From Chloroflexota bacterium (GTDB lineage Bacteria; Chloroflexota; Anaerolineae; Anaerolineales; Villigracilaceae), in the NCBI GenBank assembly GCA_016234555.1, contig JACRBJ010000025.1:1-64000 (forward strand): a DNA stretch of 64,000 nucleotides, in the 5' to 3' direction. The notes under the pieces are model-generated. The model made no database searches. It saw only the letters and a program-made list of their open reading frames with translations, and had not been told where the DNA came from. A program made the position numbers and the translations under genes. This document shows positions 13,780-28,144 of this stretch, in pieces (the stretch's first letter is position 1; each line of letters starts with the position of its first letter).

Positions 13780-14684
13780 CTCGCGAAGCGCATCGTTCCG
13801 GTTTTATCGCCATCATTGGACGCCCCAACGTGGGCAAATCCACCCTGGTCAACGCCCTGCTTGGGCAAAAGGTTGCCGCCGTCTCGCCGCGCCCGCAGAC
13901 CACGCGCCGCCGTCAGCTTGGCATCCTCACCCTCGAAAACGCCCAACTCGTTTTTGTCGACACACCCGGCATTCACCAGCCGCGCCACAAACTTGGCGAA
14001 TTCCTGAATTTTGAAGCGGAAGAAGCGCTGGATGAGGTGGATATAATTCTCTGGCTGGTAGATGCTTCGACTCAACCGACCGAGGACGACACCCGCATCT
14101 CTGACCTGCTCAACAGGACTTCGCTCCGCTCCACCCGGCTGCTGGTCCTGAACAAAATGGATTTGGTCAAACCCGAAGACGAGTCCGCCCGCAGCGAGGA
14201 ATATGCCAGATTGCTGAATCAGGCTGAAGCAGTGAAAATCTCGGCGACGAAAAAAATCGGCATGGACAAACTCCTCGAGCGGCTGGTCAGCCTGCTTCCG
14301 CAACGTCCGCCCGAATATCCCGAAGAGCAGGTCACAGATTCATACGAGCGCGACATCGCCGCCGACCTCATCCGCGAATCCTGCCTGAAAATTTTGCGCG
14401 ACGAAGTGCCGCACAGCCTCGCCGTCCGCGTGGACGAATTCAAGGAACGTGAAAACGGCATGGCATACATCGCCGCGACGATTTTCGTGGAGCGCGAATC
14501 GCAAAAGGGCATCGTCATCGGCGAAGGCGGCAAAATGCTCAAGTCCATCGGCAGCGCCGCGCGCAAGGAAATCGAAGACATGGGCGGACGCAAGGTCTTC
14601 CTCGAAGTGCGCGTGAAGGTGGCGAAGGACTGGCGAGATAACCAGAATATGTTGAATCAGTTTGGGTATATCAAAAGAAAGTAA
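13776..14684 (+). CDS. era: GTPase Era
   Basis: This 302-residue protein is the ribosome-assembly GTPase that binds the 3' end of 16S rRNA. The G1 motif GRPNVGKST begins at residue 15, the G3 motif DTPG lies in FVDTPGIHQPRHKLG, and G4 is NKMD. The C-terminal KH domain includes GEGGKMLKSIGSAARKEIE. Length and order are normal for Era. I chose the ATG at 13776 rather than an upstream in-frame codon because it forms the ATGA overlap with the EamA gene and aligns with Era N-termini. Confidence 0.95.
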   Translation: MTREAHRSGFIAIIGRPNVGKSTLVNALLGQKVAAVSPRPQTTRRRQLGILTLENAQLVFVDTPGIHQPRHKLGEFLNFEAEEALDEVDIILWLVDASTQPTEDDTRISDLLNRTSLRSTRLLVLNKMDLVKPEDESARSEEYARLLNQAEAVKISATKKIGMDKLLERLVSLLPQRPPEYPEEQVTDSYERDIAADLIRESCLKILRDEVPHSLAVRVDEFKERENGMAYIAATIFVERESQKGIVIGEGGKMLKSIGSAARKEIEDMGGRKVFLEVRVKVAKDWRDNQNMLNQFGYIKRK

Positions 14685-14732
14685 CGAGAAATGAGTAACG
14701 AGTACGTCCATCACTCGTTACTCATTTCTCGT
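14684..14732. terminator. 20-bp perfect inverted repeat between convergent genes
   Basis: Arms at 14684-14703 and 14713-14732 are perfect reverse complements with a 9-base loop. Each arm consists of three heptads (for example AACGAGA, AATGAGT, AACGAGT, with the first base at 14683), linking it to the heptanucleotide repeats elsewhere. It may terminate transcription from both era and the yitT-like gene, although no long T-run follows. Confidence 0.6.
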
Positions 14733-14739
14733 CATTCAA

Positions 14740-24231: not shown

Positions 24232-25455
24232 ATGTTCAGAAAAATCGTTCGCATTGTTACCGCAATATCTGTTGCCCTTGGAATGTTCATGGCAACATCC
24301 CCGGCTTTGGCACACAGCGAAGGGGATGGGAATGAAGTCAAAGGCATAATTGCAGCTGTGGATGCCACAGCCAGCACAGTTACCATCACGCCTCAGGGTG
24401 GCGGTATGGATGTTGTTCTTACCGTGGATGCCATCACCCTGATCAAACGCAATGACAAACCCGCCACGTTAGCCGACCTGCAAATGGGCGACAAGGTGGA
24501 AGCCAAGTACAACGCGGTGACTTTGGTTGCCAGCAAAATCGAGGCTGAGTTGGATTTGTCCGAATTGGAAGGTGTAATCTCAGCCTTGGATTCCACCGCC
24601 GGCACGGTCACTGTCACTCGTCAGGACAGCACGACTGTCACAGTCACCGTTAACCCCACCACCTTGATCAAGCGCAACAAGAAGGCAGCCACGCTTGCCG
24701 ACCTCCAACTGGGCGACAAAGTGGAAGTCAAGTACAACGCGATGACTTTGATTGCCAGCAAGATCGAAGCCAAGCTGAATTTGTCTGAATTGAAGGGCAT
24801 CATCACCGCCCTGGATTCCGCCGCCGGCACGGTCACTGTCACCCGTCAGGACAACACAACTGTTACAGTCACCGTTGACGCCAGCACCTTGATCAAACGC
24901 AACAAGAAGGCAGCTACGCTTGCCGACCTGCAACTGGGCGACAAGGTGGAAGTCAAGTACAACGCAGTGACTTTGCTTGCCAGCAAGATCGAAGCCAAGC
25001 TGAATTTGTCTGAACTGAAGGGAATCATCACAGCCCTGGATTCCGCCGCCAGCACGGTCACTGTAACCCGCAAAGACGGCACGACCGTTACGGTCACTGT
25101 TGACGTCAACACGTTGATCAAGCGCAATGGCAAGCTTGCTACATTCGCCGACCTTCAACTAGGCGACAAAGTGGAAGCCAAATACAACGCGGTGACTTTG
25201 GTTGCCAGCAAGATCGAAGCCAAGTTGAATTTATCTGAACTGAAGGGTGTAATCTCAGCCCTGGATTCTGCCGCCAGCATCGTCACTGTCACCCGCAAAG
25301 ATGGCACGACCGTCACGGTCACTGTCGATGCCAGCGCGTTGATCAAACGCAATGGCAAGCCCGCCACACTCGCCGACCTTCAACTGGGCGACAAGGCGGA
25401 AGTCAAGTACAACGCGGTGACTTTGGTTGCCAGCAAGATCGAAGCCAAACATTAA
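24232..25455 (+). CDS. secreted protein of five 75-residue tandem repeats (DUF5666-like)
   Basis: This 407-residue protein has a clear signal peptide cleaved after about residue 27 (ATSPALA). Five tandem repeats of 75 residues then fill the rest of the protein almost exactly. Each repeat reads roughly LSELKGIITALDSAAGTVTV, a Thr/Val-rich pair of strands, TLIKRN, an ATLADLQLGDKVEVKYN segment and a LxASKIEA end. The GDKVEVKY part is typical of DUF5666 beta-barrel proteins. DNA repeats are also highly similar, so copy number may vary by recombination. The function is unknown; a surface or periplasmic location is likely. It has its own terminator. Confidence 0.85.
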   Translation: MFRKIVRIVTAISVALGMFMATSPALAHSEGDGNEVKGIIAAVDATASTVTITPQGGGMDVVLTVDAITLIKRNDKPATLADLQMGDKVEAKYNAVTLVASKIEAELDLSELEGVISALDSTAGTVTVTRQDSTTVTVTVNPTTLIKRNKKAATLADLQLGDKVEVKYNAMTLIASKIEAKLNLSELKGIITALDSAAGTVTVTRQDNTTVTVTVDASTLIKRNKKAATLADLQLGDKVEVKYNAVTLLASKIEAKLNLSELKGIITALDSAASTVTVTRKDGTTVTVTVDVNTLIKRNGKLATFADLQLGDKVEAKYNAVTLVASKIEAKLNLSELKGVISALDSAASIVTVTRKDGTTVTVTVDASALIKRNGKPATLADLQLGDKAEVKYNAVTLVASKIEAKH

Positions 25456-27109: not shown

Positions 27110-28144
27110 ATGAAACTTGATGCCGCACTTCCCCCCGTTCAACTGAAAGATGTCCCCGCGATTGCGGAAGCCGCGCAGGAAATCGGATTCGACGCCTTGT
27201 GGACTCAGGAAACCCAGCACGACCCCTTCCTGCCCTGTGCGCTGATTGCTGAACATTCGGCGACGCTCAACTTCGGGACAGCCATCGCGGTTTCGTTTGC
27301 GCGTTCACCCGCCAACCTTGCCTACACCGCATGGGACCTGGCTGCGCAGTCCGGGGGGAGATTCATCCTTGGGCTTGGCACCCAGGTCAAGGCGCACATC
27401 GAACGCCGCTTCGGCATGACCTGGCCCGAGTCGGTGACGGGTCAACTCCGCGAGCAGATTCAGGTCATCCGCGCGTTTTGGGATTGCTGGCAAAACGGCA
27501 CAAAGTTGAACTTCCGTGGCGAGTATTACAAAGCCACGTTGATGTCACCTTTTTTTCAACCCCCTCCCTTACCCTCCGCCATTTTCGAGGAAAATGGCGG
27601 AGGGCAGGGTGGGGGTATTCCGATCTACATCGCCGGCGTCAACACGGGACTCGCAAAGCTGGCAGGCGAACTGTGCGAAGGATTCCATGCGCACCCGTTC
27701 AACAGTCCACACTACATGAATGAGGTAATTATGCCCGCCATCGAAGATGGTCTGCAAAAGAGCGGACGAACCCGCAAGGACATCACCGTCTCGATGACGC
27801 CGTTCGTGGCGACCTCTCCCGAAGAGGAATCCTTCGCGCGGATGCAGATCGCGTTCTACGCATCCACGCCGTCCTACCACGCGGTGATGGACTTGCACGG
27901 CTGGAGCCAGACCGCCCAGCAGTTATCGGGCTACGCCGCCAAAGGTGAATGGGCTGAAATGCCCATGCTCATCACTGACGAGATGCTGCACACGTTCTGC
28001 CTTGTCACGATGCAGGAAAACCTCGCGGACGATTTGAAGAAGCGCTACAAAGGCATCGCGGATCGAATCACGCTCTACACGCCCTTTGTCCCGAAGGAAA
28101 AGGATGATTGGTGGAGAGAGTTGGCAAAGGCGTTTAATTCGTAA
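27110..28144 (+). CDS. F420-type LLM class oxidoreductase (TIGR03617-like)
   Basis: This 344-residue TIM-barrel protein resembles luciferase-like flavin or F420 oxidoreductases. Family features are GFDALWTQETQHDPFLP near the N-terminus, FGTAIAVSFARSPANLA, GRFILGLGTQVKAHIERRF and IPIYIAGVNTGLAKLAGE. The substrate is unknown. Between MSPFF and IPIYIAG it carries an insertion PPPLPSAIFEENGGGQGGG, encoded by a long perfect DNA hairpin that keeps the frame. It lies close behind the M42 peptidase gene. Confidence 0.88.
   Translation: MKLDAALPPVQLKDVPAIAEAAQEIGFDALWTQETQHDPFLPCALIAEHSATLNFGTAIAVSFARSPANLAYTAWDLAAQSGGRFILGLGTQVKAHIERRFGMTWPESVTGQLREQIQVIRAFWDCWQNGTKLNFRGEYYKATLMSPFFQPPPLPSAIFEENGGGQGGGIPIYIAGVNTGLAKLAGELCEGFHAHPFNSPHYMNEVIMPAIEDGLQKSGRTRKDITVSMTPFVATSPEEESFARMQIAFYASTPSYHAVMDLHGWSQTAQQLSGYAAKGEWAEMPMLITDEMLHTFCLVTMQENLADDLKKRYKGIADRITLYTPFVPKEKDDWWRELAKAFNS
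27560..27615. repeat. 56-base hairpin element inserted in frame
   Basis: The 15-base arms 27572-27586 and 27590-27604 are perfect reverse complements around GAG. Outer C-rich and G-rich blocks (CCCCCTCCC and AGGGTGGGGG) extend the stem. The element encodes a Pro-rich arm and a Gly-rich arm inside the LLM oxidoreductase. Confidence 0.85.

Follow-up and report, generated by a model that had tools for sequence, protein, structure and literature searches.

A palindromic repeat probably retained in frame in one loop of an Anaerolineales oxidoreductase gene

The window, the 64,000-nucleotide stretch of Chloroflexota DNA analysed here, encodes on its forward strand (positions 27110–28144) a 344-residue F420-dependent LLM class oxidoreductase. 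The protein scores 383.9 bits against NCBIfam TIGR03617 (cut-off 278.15) and 200.7 bits against Pfam Bac_luciferase. Its AlphaFold model, built on an alignment of 54 of 81 sequences, has a pLDDT of 91.6 and the luciferase-like barrel; the best match in the PDB is Mer, a methylenetetrahydromethanopterin reductase (1z69, TMq 0.79). The gene is under purifying selection (dN/dS of 0.05 to 0.14 in 8 chosen pairs, similar with and without the insert described below), which argues against its being a pseudogene. An open reading frame at 24232–25455 encodes a 407-residue, secreted-looking repeat protein with about five tandem repeats of about 70 residues (TLIKRN..KPATLADLQLGDKVEVKYNAVTLVASKIEAKLNLSELKG).

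Residues 150–169 of the oxidoreductase (27557–27616, forward strand) form a 20-codon in-frame segment, QPPPLPSAIFEENGGGQGGG, flanked by MSPFF and IPIYIAG. An alignment of 81 orthologs shows that it replaces a 9-codon loop of the NPGAIENPN type. RNA folding places a hairpin at 27559–27616, to which no strand is assigned. Its arms (27561–27586 and 27590–27615) are separated by a 3-nt loop, and a hairpin search and the fold agree on a perfect inner stem of 15 bp, in which 27572–27586 on the forward strand and 27590–27604 on the minus strand both read CCCTCCGCCATTTTC. Outside this stem the arms are C-rich and G-rich, and pairing is broken by one 1 × 1 mismatch and one 2 × 1 internal loop. The predicted RNA fold has an energy of −48.1 kcal/mol, compared with a mean of −25.3 for dinucleotide shuffles, of which 0 of 200 were equally stable (z = −7.2). 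The initial annotation had described a 15-bp perfect stem with C-rich and G-rich extensions, lying between MSPFF and IPIYIAG without breaking the frame; the arm coordinates and the fold confirm the stem, and the reading frame does stay open across it at a place where most orthologs have the shorter loop.

In minus-strand orientation the element consists of a tail, CCCCCACCCTG (27605–27615), and then the hairpin CCCTCCGCCATTTTC...GAAAATGGCGGAGGG. The tail leads directly into CCCTCC, as in two copies found outside this gene (see below). A second, partially matching tail, CCCCTCCCTTA, is recognizable on the forward strand at 27561–27571 from loop alignment and folding; in the relative L105 it reads CCCCACCCTTA, which removes the mismatch. 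A transcription terminator was rejected because of the mid-gene position and the lack of a T run after the hairpin. A known RNA family was likewise rejected, as the ten Rfam matches are all to microRNA families and far below the cut-offs. In the window and a further 400 kb sampled from this genome (464 kb in all), there are 52 hairpins with stems of at least 14 bp and at most one mismatch; a single first-order Markov simulation of these stretches gave none. Of these hairpins, four are in frames open for 60 codons on both sides, among them the hairpin in the LLM gene; the other three may be in shadow frames. The longest stem in the window, of 22 bp, belongs to the hairpin TAACGAGAAATGAGTAACGAGT at 14682–14734, outside long open frames.

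The ortholog set (n = 81) comprises the window gene and 80 of 111 confirmed loci, most of them titled Anaerolineales or Chloroflexi, and the loop of each was scored as filled or empty by sequence pattern. In 54 orthologs, exactly 9 residues of the NPGAIENPN type follow (S/T)PFF, and the loop is likewise 9 residues long in the far outgroups (L108 and L110–L113). The loop of the other 27 has 11 to 25 residues encoded by C-rich and then G-rich DNA, often mutually unrelated in sequence; L047 and L086 were scored as filled despite short C/G-rich segments (11 and 12 residues). All 27 filled segments are multiples of three in length and stop-free, and all 81 orthologs are single open frames. The stop flagged in the G032 match (L047) appears to be the gene's own end, because the frame is open over 333 residues. 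Since other internal indels occur in just 9 of the 81 alignment rows, the (S/T)PFF loop is the most tolerant point of the gene. The insert is followed immediately by IPIYIAG (27617–27637, forward strand), part of which forms model strand 172–176. From barrel topology, the loop preceding such a strand would be expected on the side opposite the active site and cofactor. The insert is the least certain region of the model, with residues 163–167 below a pLDDT of 50.

The initial annotation had named the presence of PPPLPSAIFEENGGG in other family members as evidence that would count against it; this sequence is approached by only 1 of the 80 other orthologs, the nearest filled relative L105 (isolate BIN17), which has QPPPLPSPIFLENGGGQGGG. 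The pair reads as a shared recent allele and not as a feature of the family. The 25 further filled orthologs have different segments in this loop, for example LTSPPAPLLKERGA, PPSPVGRGDGGEG and PFLPSPNSRGIWGGAGGG. The fold z score is below −2 in 17 of the 27 filled alleles and below −3 in 11, perhaps only 11 because shuffled C/G runs also fold; empty alleles (n = 54) have a mean z of −0.3, with 2 under −3. The window allele has the second lowest value among the filled alleles and L105 the lowest. Four filled alleles (L047, L086, L101 and L102) fold no better than shuffles, which suggests that the hairpins also decay and that RNA structure is not required. The window allele and that of L105 differ at six points, including a compensated G–C/C–G pair, a reversed 3-nt loop and one restored mismatch, and all six keep or improve pairing; judged from this one allele pair, the differences would fit copying between the arms during replication. 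From our reading of the alignment, some 5 to 8 codons of the original loop are missing from each filled allele, so the filled state reflects replacement, or insertion followed by trimming, and not clean insertion. No target-site duplication was seen at the LLM loop, the sole site examined, where target codons are replaced.

We mapped the presence and absence of the filled loop onto a gene tree constructed from DNA with the loop region left out. At least 19 state changes are required. A gain-only count gives 21 gains on the best tree and 14 once branches under 95 have been collapsed so as to keep gains few. With randomly assigned labels the mean is 22.8 changes, and 9 of 200 shuffles have 19 or fewer; the filled state is almost, but not entirely, scattered over the tree. 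Similar alleles occur in distant clades (L045, L049, L051, L078 and L079) and could reflect recombination of the gene instead of new insertion; recombination of alleles between species can account for part of the scatter.

Whether the same hairpin occurs between genes elsewhere, a check proposed in the initial annotation, could be answered positively, with small differences. A near-identical hairpin with the same tail is found in this genome at C17:161346, and a near-identical element precedes a gene start in genome G018; from reading the sequence, both are apparently between genes. Few genomes of the genus have the element in its strict pattern (3 of 57), and in the third of these (G078) both arms match those of L105. 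A sister class, consisting of the tail CCCTCACCCC and the hairpin CCCCTCTCC..GGAGAGGGG, is present in 35 of 41 congeneric genomes (0 to 66 copies; backward-pattern controls, 0 or 1) and in 83 of 151 genomes of a Chloroflexota sample (up to 334 copies; controls, up to 13). Its ends are sharp: among 46 one-tailed copies, composition is near-random just beyond the tail and 1–2 bases after the hairpin. By an open-frame criterion, 42 of 79 copies are outside long frames. The LTSPPAPLLKERGA-type alleles of the LLM loop resemble a stand-alone form of the repeat (GACCTCACCCC.., CCCCTCTCCTAAAGGAGAGGGG). Genomes in which the LLM loop is filled have more C/G hairpin copies than those in which it is empty (7–66, n = 8, versus 0–25, n = 22; Mann–Whitney P = 0.0004, uncorrected for kinship).

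In genome G016, 22 of 49 sister-class copies (drawn from 66, with the LLM-gene copy excluded) are in frames open for at least 60 codons on both sides; the criterion is loose, as wrong-strand frames can count and 471 of 900 random positions in the same stretches meet it. By the same loose criterion, intragenic hairpins are rarer in the genome of the window (4 of 52) than sister-class copies in G016. Ten out of ten chosen G016 host frames have Pfam domains: amidohydrolase, SecA, class I tRNA synthetase, GHMP kinase, uracil-5 methyltransferase, LUD/4Fe-4S protein, prephenate dehydrogenase, shikimate dehydrogenase, Cas4 and pyridine nucleotide-disulphide oxidoreductase. On the basis of these matches, we take three of the hosts to be ValS, TyrA and LutB. 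For the tRNA synthetase and the prephenate dehydrogenase, the domain match spans the insert. The uracil-5 methyltransferase frame (L190:1269–2612) has two separate in-frame C/G hairpins, and hairpins in L186 (G016, a frame with the SecA domain) and L172 (G020) are at apparently one site, after TDEFKAR.

Comparisons for the synthetase and the prephenate dehydrogenase were based on the best 30 loci each from the 57 genomes searched. The loop before EYIPVATIRPE of the ValS-like synthetase (L221–L250) has a C/G-rich segment in 6 of 30 orthologs, that of L228 folding no better than shuffles, and quite different palindromes in 5 further orthologs (for example, GACTTCCGAAGTCTCCGAGACTTCGGAAGTC or GGGCGGATCGCGATCCGCCC). 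The loop before YTLADSWIWA holds a C/G hairpin in 5 of 30 and other palindromes (z of −3 or lower) in 6 of 30. One loop of the prephenate dehydrogenase has the strict hairpin in 3 of 30 orthologs and different Pro-rich inserts in 2 more, with 4 of the 30 rows having no sequence at this loop. The unrelated in-frame palindromes of the synthetase loops include types built around ACTTCSGAAGT, ACCTCSGAGGT, AATTAGGAATTA with TAATTCCTAATT, and CCGTGGACGGT; for three of these four, a short core sequence is present once or twice in the 464 kb of this genome.

We conclude that the hairpin is very probably a palindromic repeat of Anaerolineales, similar in behaviour to RPEs and REPs, that is retained in those genes whose protein tolerates the loop it encodes. 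It would be one copy of a short repeat of about 36 to 58 bp, made of a C-rich tail and a hairpin. Copies presumably land at many sites in coding DNA, and selection would retain those that are in frame in loops that tolerate extra residues. The copy in the LLM gene probably occupies such a loop, before a barrel strand and, judging by topology, opposite the active site. Ribosomes would read through the hairpin and the protein would gain a flexible Pro/Gly-rich loop; copying between its own arms may keep the palindrome neat or accompany its decay.

A close precedent is provided by the RPEs of Rickettsia, palindromic repeats of about 150 bp that, according to PMC10969869 (citing Ogata 2000, 2002), occur in frame in unrelated protein genes as many families within one genus. 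The likeness is in behaviour. Here, too, a palindrome is in frame in conserved, unrelated genes (the LLM gene and the G016 hosts, including the synthetase and the prephenate dehydrogenase), and the element class also occurs outside genes, as judged by reading for C17:161346 and the G018 copy and by the open-frame criterion for the sister class. However, the elements described here are about 36–58 bp, C/G-rich and from Anaerolineales, and one loop of one gene has been filled repeatedly by different sequences. GTAG/CGTC REPs are, according to PMC3733652, high-copy palindromes of 20–40 bp, single or as dimers, mostly intergenic and with some intragenic; the same paper mentions GTAG repeats for Chloroflexota and, for two Xanthomonas, recB genes in which different REPs occupy 'about the same site'. 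Short palindromes that are partly inside genes are common to both, and the recB case parallels the refilling of the LLM loop; here, 27 of 81 orthologs have the loop filled, and two other genes have loops that behave alike. The elements differ from REPs, as described there, in that 22 of 49 G016 copies are in open frames by the loose criterion. They also have no GTAG/CGTC end tag (among 46 one-tailed sister-class copies the terminal tags were GTAG 0, CTAC 1, CGTC 0 and GACG 7), and the Y1 genes examined are without a flanking C/G hairpin. MITEs, small non-autonomous repeats able to make translational fusions (PMC10969869) and 70–300 bp in size (PMC3733652), are larger than the present elements, for which no target duplication is evident at the LLM loop. 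Perfect inverted repeats of up to 284 bp inside protein genes are described for Nematomorpha mitochondria in PMC6649704; those palindromes are in animal mitochondrial genes, whereas the present one is a dispersed bacterial repeat.

A single ancient insertion that later diversified, was often lost and spread by homologous recombination, with few independent insertions, would account for the nearly uniform left edge of the 27 filled alleles (segment residue 5 is Leu in 27 and residue 4 is Pro in 25) and for near-identical LTSPPAPLLKERGA-type alleles in distant clades. We consider this unlikely: empty alleles are outgroup-like and follow the variants of their clades (NAG, NGG and NPG), so that each loss would have had to rebuild them. 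Inserts also differ strongly among the close relatives L097, L100 and L101, and the close relatives L066 and L072 differ in whether the loop is filled at all. L079 (NAGPLTSPPTPLLQERGAY) retains the NAG of its clade, seen in the NAGAIEHPN of its empty sisters L088 and L094, which speaks for a local gain, and the resemblance of the LTSPPAPLLKERGA form to the stand-alone repeat is likewise at odds with descent from one insertion. It is decidedly improbable that the hairpin is a functional mRNA structure, kept for slowing or pausing ribosomes or for protecting the transcript. The fold is very stable and the six differences from L105 all respect pairing, as such a role would predict, but the hairpin is absent from 54 of 81 orthologs, its sequence and strength vary widely where present, and arm-templated repair could yield neat palindromes without selection on RNA. 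The 25 other segments and the four alleles that fold no better than shuffles favour tolerated repeat DNA over a conserved regulatory hairpin.

A hairpin-shaped insert of about 60 nt at a single point of a conserved gene also resembles a segment that is never translated, being either spliced out or skipped by bypassing, as with the byp elements of yeast mitochondria. Translational bypass inserts need not be in frame or stop-free. As skipping would remove the need for frame and openness, the finding that all 27 segments have both, in genes that are single open frames, makes this reading very improbable, and the Rfam search lent it nothing. An assembly or sequencing artefact, such as a fold-back chimera, has to be considered because most records are titled as metagenome assemblies; it is the least credible explanation of all, given that the other filled alleles, each from a record of its own (26 in all, from many isolates), have the segment at one place and in frame, and that L105 independently has a near-identical allele. 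A different proposal concerns the sites themselves, and we offer it tentatively, with the balance somewhat against it: certain loops of Anaerolineales housekeeping proteins could be standing acceptor sites, filled repeatedly and independently by many unrelated palindrome families that are recognized as hairpin DNA, with loop length evolving mainly in this way. The two ValS-like synthetase loops hold both C/G hairpins (6 and 5) and other palindromes (5 and 6). Entry might occur through template switching, say, or single-strand insertion while the DNA is replicated, and not through a family-specific transposase.

We also searched for an enzyme that could mobilize the preferred candidate, the palindromic repeat. 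Y1 (RAYT-type) transposases are present in 55 of the 57 genomes of the genus, but their number correlates weakly with hairpin copy number (ρ = 0.32, P = 0.06, n = 37 genomes), and none of 20 loci examined has a C/G hairpin within 1 kb of the Y1 gene. A role for them as mobilizer of the C/G class is therefore unsupported. At two of the 20 loci (L321 and L330) a C/G hairpin is about 1.0–1.1 kb away. At 4 of 20 loci (L316, L321, L329 and L331), hairpins unlike the C/G class, with stems of 11–16 bp, are no more than about 150 bp from the Y1 match; these may be terminators or substrates, and the Y1 enzymes may serve palindromes other than the C/G class.

Rickettsia and a small number of REP-rich bacteria are already known to have translated palindromic repeats (PMC10969869 and PMC3733652). 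A literature search, in which subscription journals were poorly covered, brought no report that we recognized of translated palindromes in Chloroflexota. This environmental lineage offers a replicated natural experiment, with one loop filled 14 to 21 times by the gain-only count among 81 orthologs, and the LLM loop lends itself naturally to testing how selfish DNA can persist within genes. Which loops accept such DNA, the rate at which inserts turn over and whether hairpins move without a transposase of their own can all be measured here. A note of caution also follows for annotation: some of the Pro/Gly-rich insertions seen in this group's predicted proteins represent repeat DNA and not functional domains.

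Within the same phylum, three genomes from outside this class (G203, G119 and G142) have 334, 186 and 151 C/G hairpin copies, respectively. Eight G016 loci (L183, L194, L195, L199, L207, L208, L216 and L219) have a two-tailed form with flanks such as TTACGCA, outside long open frames; this form may represent a distinct MITE-like family.
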